From positions 434,001 through 498,000 of the forward strand of contig JAFLKK010000004.1 of NCBI GenBank assembly GCA_019163375.1: 64,000 nucleotides of DNA, in the 5' to 3' direction. The notes beneath the pieces are model-generated. The model saw only the letters and a list, made by a program, of their open reading frames with translations. It made no database searches and was not told where the DNA came from. A program made the translations under genes and the position numbers. The stretch comes from Paludibacter sp. (GTDB taxonomy: Bacteria > Bacteroidota > Bacteroidia > Bacteroidales > Paludibacteraceae). This document shows, piece by piece, positions 2,920 through 62,048 of this stretch (position 1 is its first letter; the number at the start of each line of letters is the position of its first letter).

Positions 2920-2956
2920 GTTACATAATTTCACAACAAACTTACATAATTCACAC
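2920..2956 (-). promoter_or_regulatory. Regulon element 1 (two boxes, 21 bp apart)
   Basis: Boxes TTACATAAT begin at 2921 and 2942, the second followed by TCACAC. The -7 box (minus strand CATCTTTG) is at 2891-2898, 23 bp from the proximal box. It serves the 63-residue membrane protein at 2651-2842. Confidence 0.75.
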
Positions 2957-3009
2957 TTGCTTTTGGATGCACTTCGGGAACGTTGACTGCCTATCTATTT
3001 AAACAACCT

Positions 3010-3492
3010 TTATTTCTTATTGTTTATTGTAATGGCTTTTAATTCAATACCTATTTCATCTACATGTTGATTCATTGTAGCCTTAAACAATTCCCACTTT
3101 AGTTTTTCGTCTTTGTTGTATTCGTCCAGCAATATGGATAAACCGTTGTTTTGCTTTTCCAGTTCGGTTATTTTCTTACTCCAATCTCCGCTGTTATTGC
3201 TACTTTTCTTTATCTCAATAATTCTGTTTTGATTGATTTGAATTCTTGTTGATATTTCCTGTTTAAATTCGGTTCGTTCGTCAATAATTTCTTTTTTTAC
3301 CACCGACTTGGGTTTGGAAATTTCAAAAGTCATGGCTTCATTCACCACAGCACTATCGTTTGTCTGTTTTTTTTCCTGCTTCACACGATTGAAGGCGGCA
3401 TCGTTTCTCTGTTCGCGCGAAGTGCATGAAACAACCATCGCCATCAGGAATAGGGCAGCAACTTTTGTAAGTATTTTCTTTTTTAAATGCAT
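3010..3492 (-). CDS. Coiled-coil lipoprotein, paralogue A
   Basis: A 160-residue lipoprotein: signal peptide with lipobox VVSC (Cys at about residue 23), then a charged helical body. The C-terminal part carries a pattern (KITELEKQNN, then W-x-x-FK-x-x-x-N) shared with the lipoproteins at 51386-51832 and 54520-54987. Those three are clearly paralogues with the same order of parts: lipobox, coiled coil, W..FK..N end. No enzymatic motif is visible. It lies 66 bp downstream of the DUF4239 gene and is probably co-transcribed from the regulon promoter at about 4440. Likely role (inferred): an envelope structural or sensing lipoprotein. Confidence 0.7.
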   Translation of the reverse strand: MHLKKKILTKVAALFLMAMVVSCTSREQRNDAAFNRVKQEKKQTNDSAVVNEAMTFEISKPKSVVKKEIIDERTEFKQEISTRIQINQNRIIEIKKSSNNSGDWSKKITELEKQNNGLSILLDEYNKDEKLKWELFKATMNQHVDEIGIELKAITINNKK

Positions 3493-3558
3493 ATGTTTAT
3501 ATTTATGTGACTAGTAAGCCGGTTGTTCTTGTAACTATTTACAAAAACTGTATTGTAG

Positions 3559-4386
3559 TTACTTCTGCTGTGTGGCATTCGTAGCGTGAGGATCGGGAGT
3601 CCATTGTTCCATGGTAAATATCTCTTTGTACGATTTTGGTTCAATACCCAGACTGCCCGAATAGGGGTGATCCAGCATAATGATGATAAAGAAGATCATG
3701 CCAATAAAGACACCCATTAATCCATTGAGGGTGATGTGCATGATGGAATGTTCGATATCCATGAGCATGGCACAGAGCAAGGTAATCAACGCTCCGAAAA
3801 GAATGGGCAACCACAAAGGTCCGGGGATCTCGGTTTCCATAGAGCTAATCCTAAGTTGGCGATAAGCGGCCAGCTGATTTAAATGACTAAACATCTCGGC
3901 AACCAATTGTACCTGAAAAGGATTTTTCGGGTTGAGATTTTCCATTTTATTAAAAACACGATTTAAGGACACAGTCGTTTTGCGACTGGTATTGAGGTGC
4001 TCCATTTTTGGAAATTCATCGTCAATGACATTATACACAAAATCGAGGTACACGATCATAAGTTGTTTGGATTCCAATGTGTCAGGATAATATTTTATGT
4101 CGCGGTACATGCCCATGGCCGAGCTACCCTCTTTTACCACATTGCCCCGCGTATCGTTCAGTTGCCCCCACACCATAAACACCACAAAACTAAGAAACAT
4201 AGAATAGAAACTGGCGATGGCCAGAAACAAAAAGCCTGTAACTTCATTGTGCGAGCGTAAAATTCTGACGTTGATGTTTCTGCGAAAGAAATAGGTTCCC
4301 AATCCCGCCACTACACCTCCAAATAAGAGTAGCAACAGAAAAAGTAAAAAAGGCGGTATCTGCAACATATAGTAAGTAATGGCCAT
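3559..4386 (-). CDS. DUF4239 (bestrophin-like) membrane protein
   Basis: A 275-residue membrane protein. Two N-terminal helices (about 10-30 and 50-72) and two C-terminal helices (about 195-215 and 220-240) flank a soluble middle part. The phrases SHNEVTGFLFLAIASFYS and LDHPYSGSLGIEP are characteristic of DUF4239, a family of unknown function distantly likened to bestrophin anion channels. It is the first gene behind regulon element 2 and is followed by lipoprotein A, so the pair is probably one operon. The family is uncharacterised and transport activity is only a guess. Confidence 0.8.
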   Translation of the reverse strand: MAITYYMLQIPPFLLFLLLLLFGGVVAGLGTYFFRRNINVRILRSHNEVTGFLFLAIASFYSMFLSFVVFMVWGQLNDTRGNVVKEGSSAMGMYRDIKYYPDTLESKQLMIVYLDFVYNVIDDEFPKMEHLNTSRKTTVSLNRVFNKMENLNPKNPFQVQLVAEMFSHLNQLAAYRQLRISSMETEIPGPLWLPILFGALITLLCAMLMDIEHSIMHITLNGLMGVFIGMIFFIIIMLDHPYSGSLGIEPKSYKEIFTMEQWTPDPHATNATQQK

Positions 4387-4461
4387 TTGTTTCTCTGATT
4401 TTCCGGTGAAAATAAAATAATAATCTGTGTCACAAAGGTAGTGGCGGAGGTGTCAAATCGT

Positions 4462-4498
4462 GTTACAGAATAATGGGCGGGATTTACATGATTCACAT
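4462..4498 (-). promoter_or_regulatory. Regulon element 2
   Basis: Boxes begin at 4463 (TTACAGAAT) and 4484 (TTACATGATTCACA), 21 bp apart. A perfect TACCTTTG -7 box lies at 4433-4440, 23 bp from the proximal box. It serves the DUF4239 and lipoprotein A operon. Confidence 0.8.
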
Positions 4499-4607
4499 GT
4501 TTATCGGGGAGTAGACAGTTTCCTGATTTCTATGTATTTTCGCAGCAGCTTACACACAAAAAATGCTCTTTGGCATTTCCATAAGCCAAATCAGATGAAA
4601 ATGAATT

Positions 4608-4686: not shown

Positions 4687-4690
4687 TCAG

Positions 4691-8942: not shown

Positions 8943-9254
8943 TTATAGAATCAACAAGATAATGATAATAACAAGGAGTGTACTACCACCAATGTAAATG
9001 TAACTACCATCTTTACGCATGGTTTCTTTAATTTCTTTCAATTCGGATTTCAATTCCTTTTTTTCAGTTGATGAAAGTTCCGATTTGTCCATTTCACGAA
9101 TTTCTTCTACGCGTGCTCTGTAGTTGCTTACTTCTTCCTCTGTCAATTTAGTAGTCGCTTCAGTAGTTTTACTGGCCGAAGTTTTAGCTGCAAAAGCCGG
9201 TGCTGCACTCAACGAAAATATCGCTAATAGTGCAATAAAAATAGTTTTTTTCAT
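8943..9254 (-). CDS. Secreted coiled-coil protein with C-terminal membrane anchor
   Basis: A 103-residue protein: signal peptide ending APAFAAK (about residue 23), a Thr/Ser-rich stretch, a highly charged helix (EEVSNYRARVEEIREMDKSELSSTEKK in outline), then a C-terminal transmembrane helix GGSTLLVIIIILLIL. The layout suggests a periplasmic coiled coil anchored in the inner membrane. I do not recognise a functional family. It has its own regulon element at 9321-9356 and a strong terminator behind it, so it is a single-gene unit of the stress regulon. Confidence 0.7.
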   Translation of the reverse strand: MKKTIFIALLAIFSLSAAPAFAAKTSASKTTEATTKLTEEEVSNYRARVEEIREMDKSELSSTEKKELKSELKEIKETMRKDGSYIYIGGSTLLVIIIILLIL

Positions 9255-9320
9255 TTTCGAATATTTTAAATTAGATGTTCATTAATCGTTGTAAAAGTAG
9301 TTGGGCGTGCTACCGAAGTT

Positions 9321-9356
9321 GTTACATAATTTCAGAAATGAATTACATAATTCACA
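9321..9356 (-). promoter_or_regulatory. Regulon element 3
   Basis: Boxes TTACATAAT at 9322 and 9343, the second followed by TCACA. The -7 box is a weak TACTTTTA (9292-9299), 23 bp from the proximal box. It serves the 103-residue anchored coiled-coil protein. Confidence 0.75.
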
Positions 9357-9397: not shown

Positions 9398-9619
9398 TTA
9401 ATCTCTGTCGTAACCACGCTTGTCTGATCGGTGTCCACGATGATTGTCATCACCCACAATTATTACTGCTTTGGTTTTATGACGGTGGTTGTCATGTTTT
9501 TGAAACCAACCTCTATGTCTTCCATTATTGGTATGGCTTGTTACTGTGCATGATGTCATACCTCCCAACAATAGGGCAAAAAACAAAACCGTTAACATAC
9601 TTCTTAGCTTTTTCATCAT
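9398..9619 (-). CDS. Small histidine-rich lipoprotein
   Basis: A 73-residue lipoprotein with lipobox GMTSC (Cys at about residue 24). The mature part is short, basic and rich in His, Arg, Asn and Asp (HNHRHK-like runs, GDDNHRGHRSDKRG), which could bind metal or simply be disordered. I do not recognise the family. It is a single gene under regulon element 4. Either of two adjacent Met codons may be the start. Confidence 0.65.
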   Translation of the reverse strand: MMKKLRSMLTVLFFALLLGGMTSCTVTSHTNNGRHRGWFQKHDNHRHKTKAVIIVGDDNHRGHRSDKRGYDRD

Positions 9620-9747
9620 ATTTGTTTTTAAGTTGTGATATGGAACGTGTAAAATTATTTTTCAGACTTGCCAGTGAATGCCTGTATTATACCCGTTTCA
9701 TATCATTTATACTGTTTACAAAGATCGGTCAATTGCGCAGCTGATGT

Positions 9748-9783
9748 GTTACATAATTAGCGGAATAAGTTACATGATTCACA
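9748..9783 (-). promoter_or_regulatory. Regulon element 4
   Basis: Boxes TTACATAAT at 9749 and TTACATGATTCACA at 9770. The -7 box on the minus strand is GATCTTTG (9719-9726), 23 bp away. It serves the His-rich lipoprotein. Confidence 0.75.
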
Positions 9784-9841: not shown

Positions 9842-10930
9842 CTACAATTTGTAATCCGGATAATCGGTATAGCCTTTTTCGCCGGCAGTGTAAAACAAAT
9901 CGGTTTTCAATGATTTAGATAGCGGCCAGTCGTTTTTCAATCGATTCACTAAATCCGGGTTATTGATAAACGGACGCCCAAATGCAATCAAATCGGCTCT
10001 TCCATTTTCAATATCCGATGCTGCCCGCTCTTTATCATATCCTCCCGAAAGAATAAGTGTGTTTTTAAACCGAGAACGAATAATACCTTTTATTTCGGAC
10101 GGCACTTCGGGAGCACCCATGGATGAATGATCAACCAAATGTAAATAAGCGATACCCAACTTATTCAACTCTTCGGCCAGATAAGTGTACGTTTCATTTA
10201 TTTCAGGATAGGCAGGCATATCGCCGGCCACTCCATAAGGAGATAGACGAACCCCTGTTTTCTCTTTGCCAATGCTGTCGGCAACTGCGCTCACCACTTC
10301 AATTACAAATCGACATCGATTTTCAATACTTCCACCATACTTGTCGGTTCTGACATTGCTTATGGGCGAAAGGAACTGTTCCAACAAATATCCATTGGCA
10401 GCATGTAGTTCCACCCCATCAAAACCGGTTCCGACAGCATGTACAGCCGACGCAATATATTCAGTCAGGGTAAGTAATATATCTTCGTCATTCATTTGCT
10501 TTGGAATGGGGAAATCCTGCATTTGCTCGGAGTCTGTCCACATCTGTCCGGCCGCTTTTACTGCCGAAGGTGCAATGATTTGTGCACCTTCGGGTAAGTT
10601 AAGTGCATGGCTTATTCTTCCCGTGTGCATAAGTTGTATAAAAATCTTTCCGCCGGCTTTATGTACAGCCGTTGTGGTTAGCTTCCAACCGTCTACCTGT
10701 TGCTTACTAAAACAACCGGGGATGCGCGAATAACCTAATCCATTGGGTGAAGGTGCAGTGCCTTCGGTAATAATTAATCCGGCACTTGCACGCTGACAGT
10801 AGTATTCTGCCATCAATGCGTTGGGCACATTATCAATAGCACGACTACGTGTCATAGGTGACATTACTATTCGATTCTTTACTTCTAAATCTCCCAGCTT
10901 AGTAGGTTCAAACAATTCATAATTTTCCAT
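9842..10930 (-). CDS. Old yellow enzyme family NADH:flavin oxidoreductase
   Basis: A 362-residue FMN-dependent TIM-barrel ene-reductase. It opens FEPTKLGDLEVKNRIVMSPMTRSRA, the standard start of the family, and carries GFDGVELHAANGYLLEQFLSP and SGGYDKERA for FMN phosphate binding. These enzymes reduce activated C=C bonds in electrophiles such as quinones, enones or nitro compounds, using NAD(P)H. It is full length and closest in style to the NemA/alkene reductase group. It belongs to the stress regulon through element 5, which fits a detoxification role. No partner gene is adjacent. Confidence 0.92.
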   Translation of the reverse strand: MENYELFEPTKLGDLEVKNRIVMSPMTRSRAIDNVPNALMAEYYCQRASAGLIITEGTAPSPNGLGYSRIPGCFSKQQVDGWKLTTTAVHKAGGKIFIQLMHTGRISHALNLPEGAQIIAPSAVKAAGQMWTDSEQMQDFPIPKQMNDEDILLTLTEYIASAVHAVGTGFDGVELHAANGYLLEQFLSPISNVRTDKYGGSIENRCRFVIEVVSAVADSIGKEKTGVRLSPYGVAGDMPAYPEINETYTYLAEELNKLGIAYLHLVDHSSMGAPEVPSEIKGIIRSRFKNTLILSGGYDKERAASDIENGRADLIAFGRPFINNPDLVNRLKNDWPLSKSLKTDLFYTAGEKGYTDYPDYKL

Positions 10931-11028
10931 AACTAATTTATTTATAATGACGTAATTGCATGCCGTATTTGGGATACAAGTATGCGAATTTCAACGAAAC
11001 AAATGTAAGAATGGATCCGACTTTATTT

Positions 11029-11065
11029 GTTGCAAAATTTTCGGGAATAGTTATATGATTCACAC
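11029..11065 (-). promoter_or_regulatory. Regulon element 5
   Basis: Boxes TTGCAAAAT at 11030 and TTATATGATTCACAC at 11051, 21 bp apart, with TACATTTG as -7 at 11000-11007 (23 bp). It serves the old yellow enzyme gene. Confidence 0.75.
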
Positions 11066-16256: not shown

Positions 16257-16497
16257 CAGTAATGACCTTTTCCTTACTATTAATAGAGCATTACTAACTA
16301 TTAATAAAACATTCATAACAAGTAATGCTGTATTACTAACCATTAATAAAGCATTCATAACAAGTAATAGAGCATTCATAACCATTAATAAGGCATTACT
16401 GACAAGTAATAGAGCATTAATGATCATGAATAAGACATTACTAACCATTAATGAAGCATTAATGACAAGTAATGAAGCATTAATGACCATTAATAAG
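16257..16497. repeat. 21-bp minisatellite, about 12 units
   Basis: About twelve 21-bp units follow each other with the consensus (plus strand) CATTAATAAAGCATTAATGAC and variants that swap CATTAAT for AAGTAAT. On the minus strand one frame is open for all 84 codons and encodes twelve heptads of the form LLMVSNA, purely hydrophobic with one Asn per heptad. The block begins 9 bp past the stop of the YihY gene. I treat it as a repeat; translation is possible but unsupported. Confidence 0.85.
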
Positions 16498-16505: not shown

Positions 16506-17414
16506 CTACACCTTCTTGGGCTTCACAGGTGCTTTCACCTGTGCAATTTCATTTGGTGCTACTCTACCCGAAAACATATTGGCATAAGCATGGGTGAACT
16601 CGGCGCCATAGAGCACTATGGCCGACGAATAGGTTACCCAAAGCATAATAAGAATAATGGAACCGGCAGCACCGTATCCGATACCGGGATTCACGCGACT
16701 AAAATAGATACCCAGTGCATATTTTCCTAAACCAAACAGCAAAGCCGTAACAAATGACCCTATCCATACATGCTTCCATTTGATGTTGGCATCGGGCAAT
16801 ATCTTAAACATAATGGCAAAAAGCGCCGATAGAATCAAAAATGACAATAAGGTGTTTAGCCCCTGTAGTAATAATAAAAACGAATCGGAAAAATGACCGC
16901 TCAACCACGCTCCAAACCCGGCAATCAATGCCGAAACCAATAAAGATATGATAAGCAAAAAGGCAATGGAGATGATGAGTCCGAATGAAAATAAACGGAT
17001 GCGTATCACTTGCCAGATACCCGATTTGGTAGTATCCACTTTTACTTCCCAAATAGAATTCAGCGCATTCTGAAACTCTGCAAACACACCTGTAGCTCCT
17101 ATCAGAATAGTAATGATACCCACCACGGTAGCCAGTAAGGAATTGCGCATTCTACTGGCTTGAACGATAATGTCCTGAATCTGATTAGCAGTTTCCACTC
17201 CCATGGTAGCCGTAAACTCTGCCGCCACCTGATGATTCACCGCCTCACGACCAAAGAAGTAACCCGCCAGTGAGAGGATAGCCACCAATAATCCAGGCAA
17301 AGAGAAAATGGCATAATAGGCAATGATACCACTCTCGCGAAGCGGATCCTTGGCATACCATTTAATAAAAGCATTTTTCAGAACGGTGAATATCTTTTGA
17401 ATATGAGTTCTCAT
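16506..17414 (-). CDS. YihY/BrkB family inner-membrane protein
   Basis: A 302-residue membrane protein with about six helices. Markers are the N-terminal RESGIIAYYAIFSLPGLL, the NSIWEV box and the C-terminal YGAAGSIILIMLWVTYSSAIVLYGAEFTHAY, all typical of YihY/virulence factor BrkB. The family was once called RNase BN, which is wrong; its true function is unsettled. The start MRTHIQKIF at 17414 is preferred to a Met ten residues upstream (17444) because family members begin close to the first helix. Regulon element 6 lies 130 bp upstream, so it belongs to the stress set. Confidence 0.9.
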   Translation of the reverse strand: MRTHIQKIFTVLKNAFIKWYAKDPLRESGIIAYYAIFSLPGLLVAILSLAGYFFGREAVNHQVAAEFTATMGVETANQIQDIIVQASRMRNSLLATVVGIITILIGATGVFAEFQNALNSIWEVKVDTTKSGIWQVIRIRLFSFGLIISIAFLLIISLLVSALIAGFGAWLSGHFSDSFLLLLQGLNTLLSFLILSALFAIMFKILPDANIKWKHVWIGSFVTALLFGLGKYALGIYFSRVNPGIGYGAAGSIILIMLWVTYSSAIVLYGAEFTHAYANMFSGRVAPNEIAQVKAPVKPKKV

Positions 17415-17544
17415 CTGTAGAAAGTAAGTATAAAAAATAGGCAATAGTCAGGACACCACAACCGGAGTCTCACTATCATTTCACTCAAGCATGAATGCAC
17501 CTGACTATTACTTTACAAATTTAGGAGGATTCGGTTCTGCAATT

Positions 17545-17580
17545 GTTACATAAATTTCGGTAAAAGTTACATAATTCACA
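17545..17580 (-). promoter_or_regulatory. Regulon element 6
   Basis: Boxes TTACATAAA at 17546 and TTACATAATTCACA at 17567, with TAAATTTG as -7 at 17516-17523 (23 bp). It serves the YihY gene. Confidence 0.8.
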
Positions 17581-27971: not shown

Positions 27972-28886
27972 TTAAATTGTCAATAGAGCAATGACCGACT
28001 TCATTTTGTCTCTTAACTGCTCCACGAAAGAAGTGATTACTTCAGAGGGGATCGTTCGCTGGTCTTTATACACCGAAGCAAAAAATGTTTTCAGTTGTTT
28101 GTTGAAGTCAGCCGAATTCTCCAGATTACTTAAATGCCCGGCGTGCTTGATAACATGCAGAATAGACTGTTTGATATTTTCGTGCATATAGGTGGCGGTA
28201 ACCGGTGGTGTAATTGTATCCTCTTCACCTACCATTATAAGTACCGGTACCTGAATGTGGGGTAACAGGGTGCATGTTTCTTTCCGAACGCACAAGGCAA
28301 GTAATGTTTTGCTGAGTGATTGGATAGAGGTAGCGAGTATCATTTCCTTTACCGCTGCTATTTCCGCCACTTTTGTTGTCTGCGATTGAGGAGCAAAAAG
28401 GATTTTTACACTGTTGTCGGCATAATTCAGGAGCCCGTTTTTTTCAATACTTTCGACGGTTTTCATACGTTTTTCTATTGTTTCCGGCGTATCGGGGAAG
28501 CAACTGGTATCACATAAAACAAGTGACTCGAAACGGTGCGGATAGTTCTCGATGGCATTTAAAGCGATATATCCGCCCATTGATAATCCGCAAAGCGATG
28601 CCTTGTCAATTTTCAGTGCGTCCATAAAGTAAATCAGATCATGCGCAAAATTCTCAATACTGAATGTGGTTTCATCTGTCGATTCCGATTCACCATGCCC
28701 ACGAACATCATAAGCTATGACACGGTACTGTTCTTTCAGCGCTTTCAGTTGTTTTTTCCACATGGATTTATTTAGTGGAAAACCATGAATAAATATGAGA
28801 ACAGGAGCATCATCGGGTCCATCATCCGTGTAACAAACCATTAGATTATTTAAAAATAAGTTTATATTTTTTCCGAAGTAACGCAT
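27972..28886 (-). CDS. Alpha/beta hydrolase, stress regulon member
   Basis: A 304-residue alpha/beta hydrolase with oxyanion stretch HGFPLNKSMW, nucleophile elbow CGLSMGGYI, acid in VGEEDTITPP and His in HAGHLSNLE. It resembles 3-oxoadipate enol-lactonase/haloperoxidase-type proteins, but no aromatic-degradation genes are near, so the substrate is open. Compared with relatives it has about 35 extra residues at the C-terminus. Regulon element 7 places it with the stress genes. Confidence 0.88.
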   Translation of the reverse strand: MRYFGKNINLFLNNLMVCYTDDGPDDAPVLIFIHGFPLNKSMWKKQLKALKEQYRVIAYDVRGHGESESTDETTFSIENFAHDLIYFMDALKIDKASLCGLSMGGYIALNAIENYPHRFESLVLCDTSCFPDTPETIEKRMKTVESIEKNGLLNYADNSVKILFAPQSQTTKVAEIAAVKEMILATSIQSLSKTLLALCVRKETCTLLPHIQVPVLIMVGEEDTITPPVTATYMHENIKQSILHVIKHAGHLSNLENSADFNKQLKTFFASVYKDQRTIPSEVITSFVEQLRDKMKSVIALLTI

Positions 28887-29005
28887 AGGAATAGAGTTTT
28901 TTTATGTTTTATTAAAGGAGAAATACCTGATTCTATTTGAAATATCGGTTCGAATATTCAGTAAAAACAAGCAAGGCAAAATTATATACCATAGGCATCC
29001 TAAAT

Positions 29006-29042
29006 GTTATACAATACTTGGATATACTTACATGATTCACAC
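29006..29042 (-). promoter_or_regulatory. Regulon element 7
   Basis: Boxes TTATACAAT at 29007 and TTACATGATTCACAC at 29028, with TAATTTTG as -7 at 28977-28984 (23 bp). It serves the hydrolase at 27972-28886. Confidence 0.78.
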
Positions 29043-31919: not shown

Positions 31920-32399
31920 TTAGACAGCAGCTCCTGTGGTTTGATTAACAAGGTAATTCTCCAACCCCATTTGTTCAATCTGTGCACGTTGCATTTCTGC
32001 CCAGTCTACATGCGCTTCTTCCATGATGAGTATTTTAGAAAGCAAATCCACTGTACCCTGGTCATTTACTTCGCGACCTAAATTTATGGCAGCATTGTAT
32101 TTCTTCACAGCGTCAAGTTCATCGCCATTATCGTTTTTAATCATTTCCAACACCGTTTTCCCAATCTTCATAGGGTTGAGTATAGAAACAGTTGGAGCAC
32201 CATCCAAAAAAATGATACGTTCAATAAGCCACTCGGCATGGAACATTTCGTCCATTGCCTGTTTTCTGATGGCCTGATGAAGCTTGGTGTAACCCCAGCT
32301 AGCACACATTTCCGAATGAACCATGTATTGATTTATTGCAGTTAATTCATCTGCCAACAGCGAATTTAATACCGTAATTAATTTTTCATTCCCTTTCAT
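31920..32399 (-). CDS. bfr: Bacterioferritin
   Basis: A 159-residue four-helix ferritin. Ferroxidase ligands are visible: Glu in LLADELTAINQY, Glu and His in DEMFHAEWLIERI, and EEAHVDW near the C-terminus. The heme-ligand Met lies in QAMDEMFHAE, typical of Bfr. It stores iron as ferric mineral and so limits Fenton chemistry. It is the first gene behind regulon element 8, followed by the polyketide synthase, the methyltransferase-like protein and two Usps. Confidence 0.93.
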   Translation of the reverse strand: MKGNEKLITVLNSLLADELTAINQYMVHSEMCASWGYTKLHQAIRKQAMDEMFHAEWLIERIIFLDGAPTVSILNPMKIGKTVLEMIKNDNGDELDAVKKYNAAINLGREVNDQGTVDLLSKILIMEEAHVDWAEMQRAQIEQMGLENYLVNQTTGAAV

Positions 32400-32474
32400 A
32401 ATCGTATTTTTTTTAATAAATAATTCTTATTACTAAATCTGAAAAGCAAAGTTAGGGTCAGTCTCACAGAAAAT

Positions 32475-32511
32475 GTTACATAATTATGTCGTAAAGTTGT
32501 ATTATTCACAC
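32475..32511 (-). promoter_or_regulatory. Regulon element 8
   Basis: Boxes TTACATAAT at 32476 and TTGTATTATTCACAC at 32497, with TAACTTTG as -7 at 32447-32454 (22 bp). It drives the five-gene bacterioferritin operon. Confidence 0.8.
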
Positions 32512-34794: not shown

Positions 34795-35253
34795 TTATTC
34801 TATGTGTTTTCGGGTAGGAACAATGTACAGCGGAATGGTGGTACTTTTCAATACATCCTGCGCTTCACTTCCTAGAATGATGTTTTCCAACCACTTCCTA
34901 CTGTGCGAACCCATAACAATCAGATCCACATTCATTTCTTTGGCGGTTTTTAATATCGTGTCGGCGACTTCGCCTTCTTTCAACACCGTTTTGATGGATT
35001 CACTCCCCAACTTTGCTTTCGCTTTGTTGAGGAAATGCTGAGTCGCCACTTTTAAATCACCCATAACATCTACCTGCAATTCGCGCATATAGGTGTACGA
35101 CGAATAATAAACCGGTTGCTCGGAGATAACATGCAGCAATATCGTTTCGGCATTCATGGTCTGTGCCATCGAGAAACCTACTTCGGCCACCTTAATGGAT
35201 GTTTCGTCGTAATCCATTGCAATCAGCACCTTATCAATTTTGTTTGTTTTCAT
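34795..35253 (-). CDS. Universal stress protein, first gene of the aldolase operon
   Basis: A 152-residue Usp (MKTNKIDKVLIAMDYDETS) with loop GSHSRKWLENIILGS. It is very similar to the Usp at 4691-5140 over its full length, so the two are recent paralogues. It is the first gene behind regulon element 9, with the aldolase 24 bp downstream. Confidence 0.92.
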   Translation of the reverse strand: MKTNKIDKVLIAMDYDETSIKVAEVGFSMAQTMNAETILLHVISEQPVYYSSYTYMRELQVDVMGDLKVATQHFLNKAKAKLGSESIKTVLKEGEVADTILKTAKEMNVDLIVMGSHSRKWLENIILGSEAQDVLKSTTIPLYIVPTRKHIE

Positions 35254-35375
35254 AATCGTAACGTATTTAAATGTCGATGAATGCCCGGTTTGTCCGGGGA
35301 AAAGACAATACGCCTTTCTTCAAAAGAAACGCGTACTGTCAGGAAGCAAAGTTCTATTTTTCGAGCCTGCCATGT

Positions 35376-35412
35376 GTTACAAAATTGTAGAAGAAAGTTG
35401 TATGATTCACAC
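35376..35412 (-). promoter_or_regulatory. Regulon element 9
   Basis: Boxes TTACAAAAT at 35377 and TTGTATGATTCACAC at 35398, with GAACTTTG as -7 at 35347-35354 (23 bp). It drives the Usp-aldolase-baeRF operon. Confidence 0.78.
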
Positions 35413-38705: not shown

Positions 38706-39062
38706 CTAGTCTTTATTTTCATCGAGATTATCGTGATCATCGCCTCCCAGGCTATAATAGTTGTTTTCTTCGTCTTCGCTGCCAATGCTTTCCTGCGCAT
38801 CGTCCAGTTCGGAGCCCGGCACATCGAGGTCGTCGCCCGACATGTGATTTTCGAAATCGTTGACATTGAATTCATCAAATCCATCGCCTCGCTCTATATT
38901 CTTTTTCAACTCAATTTCTTCGGGATTTATTTCCGACTCTTCCTTGCACTGGCTATAAATATCTTCGCTGGCAGGATAGGTAGGATAACCGGGAAGCAGC
39001 TCTTGCTCTTCGATACTTTCAATTTTCACAATAAGGTATTTCTTTTCTACTATTTCTTTCAT
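38706..39062 (-). CDS. Very acidic protein of unknown function
   Basis: A 118-residue, soluble and strongly acidic protein with little hydrophobic content after a short ordered start (KKYLIVKIESIEEQELLPGYPTYPA). The rest is Asp/Glu/Ser/Asn-rich and probably disordered. Its ATG overlaps the stop of the SHOCT gene by four bases. No family is recognised. It shares regulon element 10 with its neighbour. Confidence 0.75.
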   Translation of the reverse strand: MKEIVEKKYLIVKIESIEEQELLPGYPTYPASEDIYSQCKEESEINPEEIELKKNIERGDGFDEFNVNDFENHMSGDDLDVPGSELDDAQESIGSEDEENNYYSLGGDDHDNLDENKD

Positions 39063-39295
39063 AATATTGGGGGTTGTTTAGGTGCTTCATATTCAATAAT
39101 TGATTTCTTTTCGTAATATTCTTTTTCGGTGATCTCACCATTTGCAAATCGTTTTTTCAGAATATCGAGTGGAGTATCTTTTTTTCGTCGCTGACCGGGA
39201 ATGTCGTAAGGAGTGGCAAAAATCCAAATGAGCATAATTATCCATACTGCCCACCAAATGAAAGCCATTCCTCCAAAATGATTGTTGTAAAACAT
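39059..39295 (-). CDS. SHOCT-domain membrane protein
   Basis: A 78-residue protein with one N-terminal membrane helix (MAFIWWAVWIIMLIWIFA) and a C-terminal SHOCT motif (LDILKKRFANGEITEKEYYEKK), a short helical hairpin common in stress and envelope proteins. First gene behind regulon element 10. Start ATG at 39295 is the first in frame and coincides with the core TGTTGTAAAACA. Confidence 0.85.
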   Translation of the reverse strand: MFYNNHFGGMAFIWWAVWIIMLIWIFATPYDIPGQRRKKDTPLDILKKRFANGEITEKEYYEKKSIIEYEAPKQPPIL

Positions 39296-39393
39296 TGAGT
39301 TGTGATGTTAGATGTGAATACTAATTGTTTTTTCTGTTGCTCTTAGCAAGTGCTGGCGAGTGAGTCAAAGGTCTGACTTTCTGCGGCAAGATA

Positions 39394-39430
39394 ATTACAT
39401 AATTACGTCAAAATGTTGCAACATTCACAT
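39394..39430 (-). promoter_or_regulatory. Regulon element 10
   Basis: Boxes TTACATAAT at 39395 and TTGCAACATTCACAT at 39416, with GACCTTTG as -7 at 39366-39373 (22 bp). It serves the SHOCT and acidic-protein genes. Confidence 0.75.
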
Positions 39431-49806: not shown

Positions 49807-50088
49807 CTATTTTACTTTTGAAGCTTTCACTTCTTTTTCTACATCTTCGACACTGTTCATTGCATCTTCAGCGAAATCAACAACATCTTCTTTTACTTTG
49901 TCGAATTTTTGAGTGATATTATCAACGAAATCATTGAATTTATCTTTCAAATCATCTACTTGTCTTTCGCCTTTGCGTACAATCGTTCTGCGGGTCACTG
50001 TACCTTTGGCAGGTGCAAACAAAACTCCTAACAATGCACCGGTGGCTGCGCCGGCCAATACGCCTAATACTACTTTTCCTGTACTCAT
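49807..50088 (-). CDS. YtxH domain protein
   Basis: A 93-residue protein: an N-terminal Gly/Ala-rich helix (VVLGVLAGAATGALLGVLFAPAKG) with the YtxH hallmark LFAPxxG, then a long charged helix (DDLKDKFNDFVDNITQKFDKVKEDV). YtxH proteins are general-stress proteins at the membrane. First gene behind regulon element 11. Confidence 0.92.
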   Translation of the reverse strand: MSTGKVVLGVLAGAATGALLGVLFAPAKGTVTRRTIVRKGERQVDDLKDKFNDFVDNITQKFDKVKEDVVDFAEDAMNSVEDVEKEVKASKVK

Positions 50089-50162
50089 AATGTTGTTGTA
50101 TTTAAATTAAACTTCTATTTGTTTTGAATAATACAAATGTAGGGCAAACTCAGGTCGTATAA

Positions 50163-50199
50163 GTTACAATATTCTGTCTATGAGTTGTATAATTCACAC
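50163..50199 (-). promoter_or_regulatory. Regulon element 11
   Basis: Boxes TTACAATAT at 50164 and TTGTATAATTCACAC at 50185, with TACATTTG as -7 at 50134-50141 (23 bp). It serves YtxH and the two genes after it. Confidence 0.8.
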
Positions 50200-51385: not shown

Positions 51386-51832
51386 CTATTTTTCATTCTC
51401 AATTAGTATACCTTTAAGTTCATTTTCCAAATCGTACATGTCCTCATTATATTCTGTTTTAAACGAGTCCCATTGTTCCTGACTTTCATCGTAATAGTTG
51501 TCGAGTCGGATCACTAAATCATTATTCCGAAGTTCGAGTTCCGCTATTTTCTTGTCATCTTTGATTTTTTGTTTCTCATTCTCCGCTGCAATTTTGGCTT
51601 TGAACAGTACAATCTCTTCATTATTCAGTCGAATTTGCTTTTCCGAATGTTTTTTGAATTGGTCAATAGAATCTTTTAATGTTGTTTTTGAATTCTGATC
51701 AATATAAATTACAGTGTCGGGCATTTCTTCTGCACGGGCTTTTTCTCTTTTAGTTGTCGACGATTGGCAAGCTGTCAATATCACTCCTGTCACCACCATT
51801 GTTGTGATCAGGTAATACATCATCCTTTTCAT
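51386..51832 (-). CDS. Coiled-coil lipoprotein, paralogue B
   Basis: A 148-residue lipoprotein with lipobox LTAC and a long charged helix (EIVLFKAKIAAENEKQKIKDDKKIAELELRN in outline). The end WDSFKTEYNEDMYDLENEL matches paralogues A and C. It is the first gene behind regulon element 12, followed 7 bp later by another lipoprotein gene and then a barrel. Confidence 0.78.
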   Translation of the reverse strand: MKRMMYYLITTMVVTGVILTACQSSTTKREKARAEEMPDTVIYIDQNSKTTLKDSIDQFKKHSEKQIRLNNEEIVLFKAKIAAENEKQKIKDDKKIAELELRNNDLVIRLDNYYDESQEQWDSFKTEYNEDMYDLENELKGILIENEK

Positions 51833-51892
51833 TTTGGTTTGTTTCTTTCATCTATTCACCCTACAAAGGTCGTACTATTTAGTACGTCAAAA

Positions 51893-51929
51893 CTTACACA
51901 ATACAGCAAATAACTTGCAATATTCACAT
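51893..51929 (-). promoter_or_regulatory. Regulon element 12
   Basis: Boxes TTACACAAT at 51894 and TTGCAATATTCACAT at 51915, with GACCTTTG as -7 at 51864-51871 (23 bp). It serves the lipoprotein B operon. Confidence 0.8.
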
Positions 51930-52797: not shown

Positions 52798-53319
52798 TTA
52801 TTTTCTTCCGTGTTTATCGTTATTACCACGATTCCCTTTTTCATTTCTTTTGTTATCGTTTTTGTAGCCCTGATTTCTATCGTTTCTAGGCGAATTGTGT
52901 TGATAGCCCTGGTTGGAGTTGTGATTCCTATTGGCCGGACGAACGCCGATATTGCGTTGTTCATGACCACGGTACCCTCTGGCATATTTCATTTTATGAG
53001 TTCTGAAATATGAATAGGGACGGTTGCCGCGATAATCGGTCATCACTACTTTGTAGCCATTGTACAAATCGTAGTTTCTATATCTGGCCGGTAAGCTGGT
53101 TCTATGTACCCATGTTCTACCATTGAAATAAATAAATCGGGATGCTTGTACATCATAATAAGATTCTACATCGGGAAGGTAATAATATCGTACTTGGGAA
53201 TGACCTGCAGGACCCCACTGAGGAGGTGTTCCAAGATGGACGTTTATTGAGACCTGACCTTGCACTGATCCGGCAAGTAACAAGAATAATCCAAATGCGA
53301 GTAACTTAAATGTTTTCAT
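52798..53319 (-). CDS. Secreted basic protein with Asn/Arg/Gly-rich tail
   Basis: A 173-residue protein: signal peptide (cleaved near GSVQGQVS), an ordered part (YYYLPDVESYYDVQASRFIYFNGRTWV) and a long low-complexity basic tail rich in N, R, G and H. The ordered part resembles proteins with a YYY-x-DxxxYYD motif seen in Bacteroidota envelope operons. First gene behind element 13. Confidence 0.75.
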   Translation of the reverse strand: MKTFKLLAFGLFLLLAGSVQGQVSINVHLGTPPQWGPAGHSQVRYYYLPDVESYYDVQASRFIYFNGRTWVHRTSLPARYRNYDLYNGYKVVMTDYRGNRPYSYFRTHKMKYARGYRGHEQRNIGVRPANRNHNSNQGYQHNSPRNDRNQGYKNDNKRNEKGNRGNNDKHGRK

Positions 53320-53384
53320 TTTGATTGTTTTAATTATGAATTAATTTTCACTTCACAAAGGTGAGGGTTTATAAGAAAAAATGC

Positions 53385-53422
53385 GTTACACAATTTTTGT
53401 GAAGAGTTGTAAGATTCACACA
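53385..53422 (-). promoter_or_regulatory. Regulon element 13
   Basis: Boxes TTACACAAT at 53386 and TTGTAAGATTCACAC at 53407, with CACCTTTG as -7 at 53356-53363 (23 bp). It serves the operon 53319-52027. Confidence 0.8.
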
Positions 53423-54519: not shown

Positions 54520-54987
54520 TTATTTCGACTTTGAGTTTACGATCTTAGTTATCGAGCGTCCTAAATCGTCCATGTCGCGATTGAAATCTTGTTTGAATTT
54601 AGTCCAGTCGCTATGGGTTCTTTCGTAATCGCTTACGCGGGTCTTCAGGTTTTTGTTTTTGATTTCGATGGAATCAATCCTTCTGGCGTAAACTTCGTCA
54701 AGTGCACTACCCGACTTGTTCATTTTTAGTTTTAATGCGGCAATAGCTACCTCATTGTTTTTGATTTTTAATTCCGACTCCAGTTTAAACGTTTTGAGTT
54801 CCTCTTCGGTAGCCGCTTTTTGTTCAACGATAGCGGCATTTACTTTTACTTTGTCTAAATTGGCCTGAGCCGACTCAACTTTTGCTTGTGCGGCCTCTTT
54901 TTTTTGATTGTCAGACAAACAAGCGGTGAGTAAACTTCCCGCCAGGCAGATAACTGCCAGCGAGACAGGTAGGGTTATCTTTTTCAT
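54520..54987 (-). CDS. Coiled-coil lipoprotein, paralogue C
   Basis: A 155-residue lipoprotein with lipobox LTAC, a long Ala/Lys/Glu-rich coiled coil (KKEAAQAKVESAQANLDKVK) and the end WTKFKQDFNRDMDDLGRSI, matching paralogues A and B. It lies 56 bp past the CsbD gene and before a PorT-like barrel. Confidence 0.8.
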   Translation of the reverse strand: MKKITLPVSLAVICLAGSLLTACLSDNQKKEAAQAKVESAQANLDKVKVNAAIVEQKAATEEELKTFKLESELKIKNNEVAIAALKLKMNKSGSALDEVYARRIDSIEIKNKNLKTRVSDYERTHSDWTKFKQDFNRDMDDLGRSITKIVNSKSK

Positions 54988-55043: not shown

Positions 55044-55229
55044 TTAGAGTGAAGATATGATTTTGTGTAATTCCTCTTTTGTTTTGCCAAGTTTTATTTG
55101 TAACCGGCCTAACATTTCTTCTTTTTTGCCTTCGGAAAACATTAAATCATTATCTGTTAATGCAGCAAATTTTTGTTTTAGTTTGCCCTTTTGTTCTTCC
55201 CAGGTTCCTTTTAGTTCAGTAGTGTTCAT
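55044..55229 (-). CDS. CsbD family stress protein
   Basis: A 61-residue hydrophilic protein: MNTTELKGTWEEQKGKLKQK, then LTDNDLMFSEGKKEEMLGRLQ, the standard CsbD pattern. CsbD belongs to sigB-type stress responses in other bacteria; its molecular role is unknown. First gene behind element 14. Confidence 0.93.
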   Translation of the reverse strand: MNTTELKGTWEEQKGKLKQKFAALTDNDLMFSEGKKEEMLGRLQIKLGKTKEELHKIISSL

Positions 55230-55296
55230 TATAGTTTTGTATTTGTAGTGAAAGTAGTATCACTTCACAAAGGTGGTACATTTTCATTAAGTTTGT

Positions 55297-55332
55297 CTTA
55301 CATAATTTAGGGAAAGAGTTACATTATTCACA
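55297..55332 (-). promoter_or_regulatory. Regulon element 14
   Basis: Boxes TTACATAAT at 55298 and TTACATTATTCACAC at 55319, with CACCTTTG as -7 at 55268-55275 (23 bp). It serves the CsbD, lipoprotein C, barrel and small membrane protein genes. Confidence 0.82.
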
Positions 55333-57703: not shown

Positions 57704-59743
57704 TTACGGTTTGTTGATTGTATTTGTACTGGTCATAACTACAGCTCCATTGCGGGCCAGCATGCGGCCTGTCATTACTGCGTACGAGTCCATGGTGATA
57801 GATTGTAAAGCCAGGATACTACCATTAAAAGTGGTATACGTTCCTATGGTTGCGGAACTACCGGTTTGCCAAAATACGTTCTTCGCTTGTGCACCACCTG
57901 TTAGTTTAATATTACCACCGGTGGTAGTTGTAAGCGTTGAAGCTACCTGAAAAATCCAATAAGCATTAGGGTCACCTTGCGCATCCAGTGTCAAATCGCT
58001 TCCATCAACCGATAGGGTAGAGGTAGACTTATAGATACCCGGAGCAAGTGTTTTACCACCCTGATTACCGGCCACTGTTTGTGGTGGCATAGCAATACAT
58101 GATTCGGCAAAAAGATAAGCAACCACCAGGTCTAATTTAGCCTGATTAAGCATGGCTGCAGTAGCGGCTCCATCATCGGCGGCATAGATATTTCCATTTA
58201 CAATAGTTGCAGGAGGAAAGCCGGTTACAGATGAACGGGCACCCGGATAGATACCTACATCCATATTGTTGACCACGCTGGCACCGGCATTGTTGCTAAC
58301 GCCTACGCCCGAAATAATCGCGAATCGAGCTACAGATCTAAGGTTTACAAACGAAGGGGCAGAAGCGATCAACGGAACACTGAATGTCCACACATAGTCG
58401 CTGGCTAAGGCTTTGTTCGAAGCGCTTTTAGCACCTGTAGTAATGGTAGCGGTGTAGGTTGTACCTGCTATTAAATTACTATTTGGAGTAAAAGTGGCAA
58501 TGTTGCCCAAATAGCTTACATTACCCAATACATTGGTAGCTCCGGCCTTAACCGTAAACGTAGCATTGGAAATGGTAAGCGGGTTCATCGTTACACTGAA
58601 AGTAGCAGCTATGGCTTTATCAACAGCCACGTTAGCATCCAGATTCGCCGGGTCGGTAAAGATAACCGCCGGTGTAAAGTCTCCTGTAGAGAATGTCCAC
58701 GAATAATCGCTAGCCAATGCTGCGCCTGTACCGGTTTTAGCTCCAGTAGTAATAGTGGCAACATAGGTGGTGTTAGGTAGAAAATCGGTGGTTGGATTAA
58801 AGCTAGCAGTTGTTCCCGAATAGTTCAACGTACCCACAATATTCGTTGTGCCTACTCTTACAGTGAATGTAGCAGCAGTGATAGTTGTAGGATCCATAGC
58901 TTTGCTAAAGCTTACCGAAACTGTTTTGTTCAACGGAACATTGGCTGTCAGGTTTACCGGATTGGTCGACAATACTGTTGGAGCAACTTCTCCGGTAGTA
59001 AATGTCCAGGTAGTGTCTTTCGCAATTGAGCTACCATCCAAATTTTTAGCTGCCATTGTAATTTGAGCGGTATACACAGTGGTAGGACTAAGACCAAGAG
59101 TTGGTGTAAACGATACACTGTTTCCTGTTCCCGAAACTAATCCTAAAACAGGCGTTGTACCATTTTTAAGTGTAAAGGTTGTGCCGGTAATAGTAGCCTG
59201 ATCCATAGGCACACTAAAGGTGGCGGTGATGGTTTGGTTTAATACTACATTGGTAGCTAGGTTTAGTGGGCTGGTTGCAATCACCACCGGTAAAATAGTA
59301 GTACCGGTACTAAACACCCACACATAGTCGGCTTGTAAGGTATTTCCCATTACATCTTTTACTGCAGTAGTTACTCTGGCTGTAAAAGTGGTGTTGTCGG
59401 CAAATTTACTGGAAGCCGTAAAGGTAGCAGTAGAATCTGCATCCGAATAAGTAACTGTTCCTGCTACGGCTGCCGAAGTTCCTGTCACCGTAAATGACGT
59501 TTCGTTGATGGTTTCAGGATTCATTTTTTTATTGAACTTGGCAGTAACAATAGTTGTTCGTATTGCCAGTTCTGCAGCACTCACAGCCTTACGTCCTACA
59601 AGAGTTGCACCACTTGCCGGTGTAACCGATACCACAGCAGGGCAAGGTCCGCCGTCGATGGCAACATAATCGTCACTCTTACAGCCTGCAAACAATACAA
59701 CCGCCAGGATGGCAAGGGTTGAAAGTAGCTTTATCTTTTTCAT
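57704..59743 (-). CDS. Lipoprotein with four Ig-like repeats and a DUF3494 (ice-binding-like) domain
   Basis: A 679-residue lipoprotein starting MKKIKLLSTLAIL with lipobox FAGC. Four Ig-like Big_5 repeats follow (each about 105 residues, with NTTYTAxITTGAK and DYVWTFSTG), then a C-terminal DUF3494 beta-solenoid (about 470-679; ending GSILALQSITMDSYAVMTGRMLARNGAVVM). DUF3494 includes ice-binding proteins, but most bacterial members have unknown ligands and may be adhesins. The start at 59743 beats one 13 codons earlier. First gene behind element 15. Confidence 0.9.
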   Translation of the reverse strand: MKKIKLLSTLAILAVVLFAGCKSDDYVAIDGGPCPAVVSVTPASGATLVGRKAVSAAELAIRTTIVTAKFNKKMNPETINETSFTVTGTSAAVAGTVTYSDADSTATFTASSKFADNTTFTARVTTAVKDVMGNTLQADYVWVFSTGTTILPVVIATSPLNLATNVVLNQTITATFSVPMDQATITGTTFTLKNGTTPVLGLVSGTGNSVSFTPTLGLSPTTVYTAQITMAAKNLDGSSIAKDTTWTFTTGEVAPTVLSTNPVNLTANVPLNKTVSVSFSKAMDPTTITAATFTVRVGTTNIVGTLNYSGTTASFNPTTDFLPNTTYVATITTGAKTGTGAALASDYSWTFSTGDFTPAVIFTDPANLDANVAVDKAIAATFSVTMNPLTISNATFTVKAGATNVLGNVSYLGNIATFTPNSNLIAGTTYTATITTGAKSASNKALASDYVWTFSVPLIASAPSFVNLRSVARFAIISGVGVSNNAGASVVNNMDVGIYPGARSSVTGFPPATIVNGNIYAADDGAATAAMLNQAKLDLVVAYLFAESCIAMPPQTVAGNQGGKTLAPGIYKSTSTLSVDGSDLTLDAQGDPNAYWIFQVASTLTTTTGGNIKLTGGAQAKNVFWQTGSSATIGTYTTFNGSILALQSITMDSYAVMTGRMLARNGAVVMTSTNTINKP

Positions 59744-59808
59744 ACATTTGAATTTATTTGTGAATTCATTTTCACATGGCAAAGGTGATACATTTAAAGA
59801 ATGATAAT

Positions 59809-59845
59809 GTTACACAATATTTGGTAAGACTTACAATATTCACAC
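59809..59845 (-). promoter_or_regulatory. Regulon element 15
   Basis: Boxes TTACACAAT at 59810 and TTACAATATTCACAC at 59831, with CACCTTTG as -7 at 59780-59787 (23 bp). It serves the DUF3494 lipoprotein and OmpA genes. Confidence 0.8.
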
Positions 59846-59999: not shown

Positions 60000-60008
60000 G
60001 AAGGAATG

Positions 60009-60056: not shown

Positions 60057-60099
60057 TTCACGGATCGTTTTATCCCTGCAAATAAGTAATATTTAATGA

Positions 60100-60252
60100 T
60101 TAAACTACTATAGCAACAGTTACAATAACTGCTATTGTCAATACTACATTTAAAATGGTTCTGATTTTACTGTATCTTGGAATAAGGGTGTTTATACCCC
60201 ACAGAAGAACCACTACCAGGCAAACAAACGAGAAAATAAGAGATTGTGACAT
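60100..60252 (-). CDS. Small two-helix membrane protein, paralogue of the next gene
   Basis: A 50-residue protein: MSQSLIFSFVCLVVVLLWGIN, then PRYSKIRTILNVVLTIAVIV. The layout and the phrase KIRxILNVV are shared with the upstream 61-residue gene. It has the helix, short PxxxKI loop and second helix of the Thivi_2564-like group. It was too short for simple gene finding. Confidence 0.75.
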   Translation of the reverse strand: MSQSLIFSFVCLVVVLLWGINTLIPRYSKIRTILNVVLTIAVIVTVAIVV

Positions 60253-60273
60253 AATGATTTATTTAAAAATAAT

Positions 60274-60459
60274 TTAGACCTGAATACTCATCAAATTGCT
60301 GAATATTCCAAATACTCTGAGAAGCCATACGATAAGAAGAATCACAACTACAATGTTTAAGATATTTCTAATCTTACGATCCATCGGAATGTAGGTATTG
60401 GCACCCCATAGGATGACACCCACTAAGATAATGACGAGTAATACGGTTAATAGTGGCAT
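60274..60459 (-). CDS. Thivi_2564-like small membrane protein
   Basis: A 61-residue protein with two helices around NTYIPMDRKIRNILNIVVV, the signature of the Thivi_2564 family of unknown function. It lies 120 bp past an OmpA gene and may be co-transcribed with it under element 16. A tandem paralogue follows 21 bp later. Confidence 0.82.
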   Translation of the reverse strand: MPLLTVLLVIILVGVILWGANTYIPMDRKIRNILNIVVVILLIVWLLRVFGIFSNLMSIQV

Positions 60460-60579
60460 AATTTTATATTTAAAGGGTGAAGAGTAAGATAGTTTAGTAT
60501 GGTATTAGGATTTGCTTTTTTATATCAATTGCCGTCCCACTTATGGGGACGGACGAATTGATAAGCTGTATCTGTAATT

Positions 60580-61878
60580 TTACTTCGTCAATTGAAATTC
60601 AACGCGACGGTTTAATTCACGACCTTCGGAAGTATTATTAGGGGCAATCGGATCTTTTTCTCCGTAACCAACTATAGTAACACTTGATGAAGGAACGTTT
60701 TTACCCAACAAATAACGTTTTACGGCATTGGCTCTTCTTTCCGATAAACCTTGATTGAATTCGTTTGTTCCAACATAATCGGTATAACCGGCTACATTCA
60801 ATCGTACAGTTGAATTATCATTTTTCAAAGTGGCGGCAATTTGATCCAACGCTCTGTATGAACCTTGAGTCAATTGATCCGATCCAAATTCAAACTCGAT
60901 ATTTTCGTACGTTGGAAGATTAGCTTCATCTTGGTACGCCGAAAGAGAATCGACCTGACTGTTTAGCTTGTTGATTTTGTTATTCAATGCAGCATTTTCG
61001 GCTTCAATCGCTTTCAGACGATCCATTGTTTCAACGGTATTGTCTTTTACAATTTTGTTGATAATAACAGGAGCTGGTTTTGGATAATACTCACACATGC
61101 TAATGTTGCGTGCATGTTGTTTTTGTCCGTTAGCACCAAGTTTAAAGCGCAGACCAATGGTTGCTGTCAACGCATCACTATTGCCTTTAGTCATTTGGTA
61201 ACCACCCAGGTTGGTTCTGTCGTAATAACGGTATTGAACTTCGCCACCCAACGCAACTGATTTGCTAATGTTGTATTCAAGGTTCAATCCTAATTTCCCC
61301 ATTACGGTTTCAGGCACGCCATCACCGGCGTCGCGCGAATCAACAATCACGTTGTTGGCCGCATCCATTAGTTTGAACTGATAAAATCCAACACCCACAC
61401 CGGCGTCGCCGTAGATATTCATTTTACTCCAGAATTTGGTTCTGTTAGGCACCAACAGGTTCATTAAATTAATAGAAGCATATACCACAGCATCATGAGT
61501 ACGTCCTTCCATTGTTCCTATTTGATTGGCATTAAGTTGGTAAGTATGTCCGTAAGGATTATACATATATTCCACTCCTAATCCTACCAACGGATTAATG
61601 CTGTACTCGATGGCAGCACCACCTACCCAGTGAAACTGATCGCTACGTGACATAGAACCCGGAGCCACGCGGAAATAATTTCCACCACCCTTTAAACCAA
61701 TCGACCAGTGCGATACCGGAACAAAATCGCAAGCAGTAGATGCTTTCAAAATACTTGAATCAGACATTACTGTCACAGCTTCCTGAGTAGACACAGTTGT
61801 TGTAGTAGTAACTTCCTGAGCAGTGGCAGATCCAACTGCAGCAGCAACAAGCATAATGCTTAATAATTTTCTTTTCAT
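60580..61878 (-). CDS. OmpA-family outer-membrane protein
   Basis: A 432-residue protein: signal peptide (cleaved near GSATAQE), N-terminal barrel (about 50-250), a coiled-coil linker (DRLKAIEAENAALNNKINKL in outline) and a C-terminal OmpA domain (AGYTDYVGTNEFNQGLSERR, VGYGEKDPI). It anchors the outer membrane to peptidoglycan. It has element 16 upstream. Confidence 0.93.
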   Translation of the reverse strand: MKRKLLSIMLVAAAVGSATAQEVTTTTTVSTQEAVTVMSDSSILKASTACDFVPVSHWSIGLKGGGNYFRVAPGSMSRSDQFHWVGGAAIEYSINPLVGLGVEYMYNPYGHTYQLNANQIGTMEGRTHDAVVYASINLMNLLVPNRTKFWSKMNIYGDAGVGVGFYQFKLMDAANNVIVDSRDAGDGVPETVMGKLGLNLEYNISKSVALGGEVQYRYYDRTNLGGYQMTKGNSDALTATIGLRFKLGANGQKQHARNISMCEYYPKPAPVIINKIVKDNTVETMDRLKAIEAENAALNNKINKLNSQVDSLSAYQDEANLPTYENIEFEFGSDQLTQGSYRALDQIAATLKNDNSTVRLNVAGYTDYVGTNEFNQGLSERRANAVKRYLLGKNVPSSSVTIVGYGEKDPIAPNNTSEGRELNRRVEFQLTK

Positions 61879-62011
61879 TGTTTTGTTTTAATTTAATAAG
61901 ATTGTTTTTATAAATAAGAATAAGTTTATAAATACATTTCAGTTGTATTGTTTTGGTTACAGAATGTATTTTTTGATCGTGACAAAGGTAGGGAAGGGGT
62001 CTGTTAGCAGA

Positions 62012-62048
62012 GTTACACAACTTTTTATATTTATTGCATTATTCACAC
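62012..62048 (-). promoter_or_regulatory. Regulon element 16
   Basis: Boxes TTACACAAC at 62013 and TTGCATTATTCACAC at 62034, with TACCTTTG as -7 at 61983-61990 (23 bp). It serves the OmpA gene at 60580-61878. Confidence 0.8.

Follow-up and report, generated by a model that had tools for sequence, protein, structure and literature searches.

We report that a two-box promoter element, repeated sixteen times in a 64,000-nt stretch of the genome of Paludibacter sp., probably serves as operator for an activator of the AraC/XylS family whose gene (C1:506845-507402) lies in the same cluster; this activator would regulate its own gene and drive a regulon of stress and envelope genes. From the sequence evidence set out here, we put the probability of this reading at about 0.85. 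The stretch analysed (the window, coordinates G000:C1:434001-498000) is part of contig JAFLKK010000004.1, and the genome comprises 4.66 Mb in 29 contigs.

Read on the gene strand, the consensus of the element is rTGTGAATnnTRYAA (the distal unit), 12 bases, RTTnTRYAAc (the proximal box), 21-22 bases, and nAnnTTTG (the -7 box). The 35-nt core TGTGAATNNTRYAAN(13)TNNTRYAA gives 16 matches in the window at 0 mismatches and still 16 at up to 2 mismatches, all on the minus strand; in 100 dinucleotide shuffles of the window, the mean numbers of core matches were 0.00, 0.01, and 0.14 at ≤0, ≤1, and ≤2 mismatches, respectively. All sixteen elements described in the first-pass annotation are present, oriented towards minus-strand genes, and the fixed 21-bp period it gave for the boxes is found start to start in 16 of 16. 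The distance of 23 bp to the -7 box (22 bp in two cases) that it reported is a base-to-base count, equal to a gap of 22 bases between the end of the proximal box and nAnnTTTG in 14 elements and of 21 bases in those at 39424 and 32505; the -7 box of the element at 9351 ends in TTTA. Its description of the boxes was right in geometry, but the distal unit was taken too short and the TGTGA preceding the distal box in 16 of 16 elements was missed; the box sequences it gave are named on the opposite strand relative to the gene strand.

Fifteen of the sixteen elements overlap no open reading frame (ORF) in the non-overlapping set of at least 90 aa, and the sixteenth, at 59839, shares 3 nt with an ORF as extended upstream to a TTG; the ATG of that ORF comes 36 nt beyond the element. 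The promoters that bear the element have no evident -33 element, and their -7 box is loose. It should be noted that the sigma-70 promoter scan is unsuited to the Bacteroidota phylum; Rfam and tRNA scans of the 64-kb window gave no matches. The elements are listed below by window position.

Element 1, 2891-2955, minus strand: ahead of the ORF of a 63-aa membrane protein (2651-2842); 0 mismatches.
Element 2, 4433-4497, minus strand: ahead of a bestrophin-like gene (3559-4386).
Element 3, 9292-9356, minus strand: ahead of the gene of a 103-aa exported protein (8943-9254); -7 box ending in TTTA.
Element 4, 9719-9783, minus strand: ahead of a 73-aa lipoprotein-like ORF (9398-9619).
Element 5, 11000-11064, minus strand: ahead of an NADH:flavin oxidoreductase gene (9842-10930).
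Element 6, 17516-17580, minus strand: ahead of a BrkB-family gene (16506-17444).
Element 7, 28977-29041, minus strand: ahead of an alpha/beta hydrolase gene (27972-28886).
Element 8, 32447-32510, minus strand: ahead of a bacterioferritin gene (31920-32399); -7 box one base closer.
Element 9, 35347-35411, minus strand: ahead of a universal stress protein (Usp) gene (34795-35253).
Element 10, 39366-39429, minus strand: ahead of a 78-aa SHOCT-domain ORF (39059-39295); -7 box one base closer, missed by the 65-nt genome pattern.
Element 11, 50134-50198, minus strand: ahead of a YtxH gene (49807-50088).
Element 12, 51864-51928, minus strand: ahead of a 148-aa lipoprotein-like gene (51386-51832).
Element 13, 53356-53420, minus strand: ahead of the gene of a 173-aa exported protein (52798-53319).
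Element 14, 55268-55332, minus strand: ahead of a CsbD gene (55044-55229) and a lipoprotein-like gene (54520-54987).
Element 15, 59780-59844, minus strand: ahead of the gene of a Big_5/ice-binding-like surface protein (57704-59782 as ORF; ATG form 679 aa).
Element 16, 61983-62047, minus strand: ahead of an OmpA-family gene (60580-61878).

Searched through the whole 4.66 Mb genome at up to 2 mismatches, a 65-nt pattern of the element gave 24 matches, of which 23 fall within C1:426067-516483, and the reversed pattern gave 0. Since this pattern missed the 39424 copy, where the spacer is one base shorter, 25 sites are known in the genome, 24 of them within 90 kb. The sole site outside the cluster is at C1:752670, with a Dps-like gene 99 nt downstream of it; this gene matches the NCBIfam Dps model at 2e-24, which falls short of the model's cut-off, and Pfam Ferritin. 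One cluster site beyond the window is on the opposite strand (C1:508341, plus strand).

The candidate regulator and its operon, which lie in this cluster beyond the end of the window, consist of the following features.

C1:507428-507492, minus strand: the regulator's own element, ending 25 nt ahead of the start of the AraC gene.
G000:C1:506845-507402, minus strand: AraC-family protein of 186 aa (HTH_18, 6e-16), about 9 kb past the window end.
C1:503265-506780, minus strand: hybrid kinase of 1171 aa, with PAS domains, HisKA, HATPase, a receiver, and a weak HPt match (0.0027).
C1:502834-503268, minus strand: receiver-only protein of 144 aa, in the same operon as the AraC gene.

The 186-aa protein carries a C-terminal double helix-turn-helix domain, as in the AraC/XylS family, and its structure model likewise predicts an AraC-type DNA-binding domain. 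Its N-terminal domain appears to resemble copper chaperones. The CxxC metal site is not kept: Ser takes the place of the first Cys in 10 of the 12 orthologues from the family and in 90% or more of the 37 named orthologues, whereas two of the family orthologues, as well as many relatives at a greater distance, retain this Cys. A Pfam search found no DNA-binding domain in the kinase or in the receiver-only protein. By a simple hydropathy cut, the kinase of this genome is without a membrane helix, and a helix is found in 16 of 67 orthologues. The same genome also carries an AraC paralogue of 45% identity (G000:C6:117770-118312).

The first-pass annotation saw no regulator gene in the window, which is correct as regards the AraC candidate; however, a scan of window proteins brought up one regulator-like gene, MerR_2 at 1189-1479, and no other. 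Together with a DnaJ-type gene (1567-2463) it forms a pair resembling CbpM/CbpA, and the MerR_2 protein looks like a CbpM-type chaperone partner; nothing links it to the element, and we set the pair aside as the regulator.

The AraC gene follows the element across genomes. At up to 1 mismatch, the element is present in 12 of 150 genomes of the family; ranking the genomes by their AraC match puts precisely these 12 at the top (62-99% identity), and the reversed control gave 0 throughout; the next-best AraC match in the family, at 61% identity, belongs to a genome without the element. Inside genera the distribution is patchy (7 of 13, 4 of 8, and 1 of 4 genomes). In a phylum sample of 198 genomes, the element was found in 18, and its presence goes with the AraC profile score: 8 of 8 genomes at 300 bits or more, 7 of 36 at 200-300 bits, and 3 of 154 below that or without a match.

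The linkage was also examined in named relatives. An AraC profile search of candidate stretches returned at least 548 relatives, from which the best 80, 72-87% identical, were taken by AraC similarity only; they come from Flavobacterium, Lutibacter, Mucilaginibacter, Prolixibacteraceae, Cytophagales, Saprospiraceae, Paludibacter, and others, with one labelled Ignavibacteria. At up to 1 mismatch, the core occurs in 72 of these 80 loci, in 215 copies, and the reversed control gave 0 in 1.31 Mb. Within 300 nt ahead of the AraC gene, the core (up to 2 mismatches) is found in 58 of 79 loci, and inside the gene in 0 of 80. The geometry is conserved as well: when the distal unit is required to match exactly, a single offset of the proximal box accounts for 151 cases and no other offset between 15 and 60 for more than 4, while nAnnTTTG stands at one offset in 133 of the 214 sites with enough flank and one base closer in 23. 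Of 214 sites in the relatives, 201 lie outside ORFs of at least 100 aa and 13 inside.

The kinase was matched in 76 of the 80 named loci and the receiver protein in 72, although these domains are common and some matches may be other genes. Among the first downstream proteins (n = 79), the PAS part of the kinase studied here was matched in 70, the kinase core in 65, and the receiver in 66. Of the 86 inner branches in a tree built from 90 AraC proteins, 45 are unsupported, and the orders are mixed yet clustered above chance (for Flavobacteriales, 6 changes against 17.4 when shuffled), a pattern that fits descent with or without horizontal transfer. Among fifteen further loci with mostly more distant AraC genes, a few have single weak operator copies and several have none; at one (L198, G182:C1:4553001-4572000), three drifted copies, with AGTAAAT replacing TGTGAAT, lie downstream of a more distant AraC gene. 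These loci offer too little to claim that operator and AraC protein vary together.

A number of observations weigh against the proposed link between the element and the AraC protein. The formal probabilities of the co-occurrence are too small at face value, because the genomes share ancestry. Among the 12 AraC genes of the family, a clear upstream copy is found for 8, a decayed copy for 1, and none for 3; among the named loci, the stretch examined is without a core, even allowing 1 mismatch, in 8 of 80, and in 21 of 79 no core under 5 mismatches lies within 300 nt ahead of the AraC gene. In genomes G160 and G165, good sites are accompanied by no more than a distant AraC homologue; in G341, which has three sites, no AraC homologue was found at 1e-12, although both of the two sites that were read are near contig ends. 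Among the phylum genomes scoring 200-300 bits, several matches resemble a different site close to an AraC paralogue.

The entries with good elements and no close AraC orthologue are G160, G165, G341, and L185-L188. Of the 200-300 bit matches, a conserved related site starting TGGGAATTATATAACG recurs 2.3-2.9 kb from an AraC paralogue in four genomes of one genus, and TGGGAATTATATAACG-type sites are perhaps that paralogue's own operator; their positions are as follows.

G319:C1:2453652: TGGGAATTATATAACG-type site.
G174:C29:28900: TGGGAATTATATAACG-type site.
G170:C20:393415: TGGGAATTATATAACG-type site.
G323:C13:107048: TGGGAATTATATAACG-type site.

The genes behind the window elements bear out the first-pass description of the targets as stress and envelope genes. 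They encode bacterioferritin, Usp, YtxH, CsbD, bestrophin-like, BrkB, flavin oxidoreductase, hydrolase, OmpA, Big_5/ice-binding, SHOCT, and small membrane or lipoprotein-like proteins, and the cluster targets outside the window are an ice-binding-like protein, MlaE, DUF6600, DUF6629, OmpA, and the AraC gene. Mechanical assignment of downstream genes in the 80 named loci gave 209 genes in 53 groups, of which the largest are the AraC gene (55 genes in 51 loci), Big_5/ice-binding proteins (36), CsbD (17), a small exported protein (10), and glycine-zipper OmpA (9).

Because the 80 loci had been picked by their AraC gene, we checked the targets genome-wide in the 12 family genomes. The element stands directly upstream of 8 of 9 CsbD genes (8 genomes with CsbD), of 2 of 2 Dps genes (2 genomes with Dps), and of 5 of 16 YtxH genes above the cut-off, one of the five at 2 mismatches. 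The last value indicates that the regulon picks particular copies and not all genes of such a family. Target genes of the general-stress kind (CsbD, Dps, YtxH, bacterioferritin, and Usp) are present.

Three further features were observed in or near the cluster. A chalcone/stilbene-synthase-like (type III polyketide synthase) gene lies inside the stress cluster, at window positions 30768-31829. About 10 copies of a 21-bp unit, which can also be read as a 63-bp unit, occupy 16279-16497, mostly inside an 84-aa ORF. Just outside the cluster, a 168-aa ORF (L028, C1:525732-526238) is made of near-identical SRAFERHSRAFERP-type repeats.

The sequences themselves show the element with its geometry and placement, the way it is linked to this AraC group and occurs together with it, the operon, and the domain matches. 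For the mode of action, we infer binding, activation rather than repression, a phosphorelay link, and an inducing signal, as follows. Two AraC monomers, facing the same way and separated by two helical turns, would occupy the two boxes, and the proximal monomer would sit beside RNA polymerase on the relaxed -7 box (nAnnTTTG), replacing the -33 element; the putative tandem dimer of the first-pass annotation fits the two-box geometry. The activator would control its own operon, composed of the AraC gene, the PAS hybrid histidine kinase, and the receiver-only protein, and the regulon output would be the stress and envelope genes. Autoregulated activation by two monomers on one face of the DNA is proposed because of the direct repeats of XylS at Pm and the predicted repeats, on average 21 bp apart, of AraC domains in Bacteroides, which are described below. 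The kinase and the receiver-only protein probably set the activity of the activator via a phosphorelay. The fused receiver of the Bacteroides proteins is reported to inhibit the AraC domain in a phosphorylation-dependent manner (PMC11253607); since the receiver here is a separate protein, the idea that it acts by contact is a guess. With a PAS kinase that is mostly cytosolic, the signal is perhaps an internal one.

Alternative explanations differ in the regulator, in the sign of control, and in the stimulus. The first-pass annotation had named a LytTR-domain regulator as the candidate to bind the element; LytTR proteins bind direct repeats about 21 bp apart, and the genome studied has 6 LytTR matches. 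However, LytTR counted as a domain, with orthologue groups pooled, is matched in 131 of the 150 family genomes and the element in 12, and the three of the six matches that were located lie on other contigs (C2, C9, and C4). The AraC gene fits better, because the element lies 25 nt ahead of it, the two co-occur across genomes, and the repeats predicted for AraC-type domains in Bacteroides have a distance of about 21 bp, and we regard binding by a LytTR protein as very improbable. Somewhat less remote, and still unlikely, is that the site is a repressor operator at which the AraC protein blocks the promoters under good conditions. The proximal box is close to the core promoter, and both signs of control are compatible with the sequence; on the other hand, the lack of an evident -33 element and a loose -7 box are expected of activator-dependent promoters, and AraC-type proteins at such tandem sites are mostly activators.

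A much more serious possibility, to which we would give somewhat less than an even chance, is that the AraC protein binds the element but the regulon answers one narrow stimulus, such as surface attachment, cold, or a metal, and not general stress. With 36 of the 209 downstream genes, Big_5/ice-binding surface proteins rank second among the target groups, the N-terminal domain of the AraC protein appears copper-chaperone-like, the element is missing from 180 of the 198 phylum genomes at the stringency used, and of the 16 YtxH genes above the cut-off, 11 lack an immediately preceding element. Against this, the CsbD (8/9), Dps (2/2), bacterioferritin, Usp, and BON-domain targets resemble general stress sets, a comparison that draws on general knowledge.

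Tandem operators of AraC-type proteins are already known, and what may be new is the regulator, operon, and regulon described here. AraC binds at araI1-I2, two direct-repeat sites beside the core promoter, and the spacing at XylS and AraC sites is 21 bp. At Pm, XylS uses a pair of homologous direct repeats of 15 bp, both divided into a box A and a box B (PMC5481539); the element described here is similar in having two direct-repeat sites of two sub-boxes that adjoin the core promoter, for monomers presumably in the same orientation. It differs in sequence and in its many targets, and where XylS and AraC have a ligand-binding regulatory domain, the protein here has a putative metallochaperone-like one.

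For Bacteroides hybrid regulators with AraC-type domains, PMC3878776 gives predicted direct repeats on average 21 bp apart. The AraC-type domain, the predicted operators of direct repeats at about 21 bp, and a kinase and receiver upstream in the signal path are common to these systems (PMC3878776, PMC11253607) and to the one proposed here; in the Bacteroides systems, sensor, kinase, receiver, and DNA-binding domain are in one protein serving polysaccharide use, whereas here they are spread over three genes. The AraC protein here is, moreover, without a receiver domain, and its targets are stress and envelope genes.

Compared with the Atx1/CopZ copper chaperones (HMA domain), the chaperone-like domain here is fused to a DNA-binding domain, with the Cys to Ser replacement noted above. 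The general stress regulons of SigB, RpoS, and EcfG are run by sigma factors, and their targets include CsbD, Dps, Usp, YtxH, and BON-domain proteins; the kinds of targets overlap with those of the present regulon, for which an AraC-type protein with a promoter of the normal -7 type is proposed. No description of the regulator, operon, or regulon was found by topic in the literature searched, with most subscription journals and all bioRxiv preprints outside its scope, and the papers listed as matching the sequence words of the element in the same literature appear unrelated by title.

To our knowledge, it is an open question how a general stress response is organised in Bacteroidota in the absence of the sigma factors of better-known bacteria. 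Our results may point, tentatively and at a likelihood just short of even, to a general stress response of Bacteroidota based on an AraC-type activator and not on a sigma factor, with an N-terminus derived from a copper chaperone, a switch formed by the PAS kinase and receiver of the same operon, and autoregulatory amplification; it would be scattered over several orders, with its targets often around the regulator. As regulator, operator, and operon are defined in Paludibacter, Flavobacterium, Prolixibacteraceae, Cytophagales, and others, the main claim is directly testable, and the operator can be used as a ready pattern to predict target genes.

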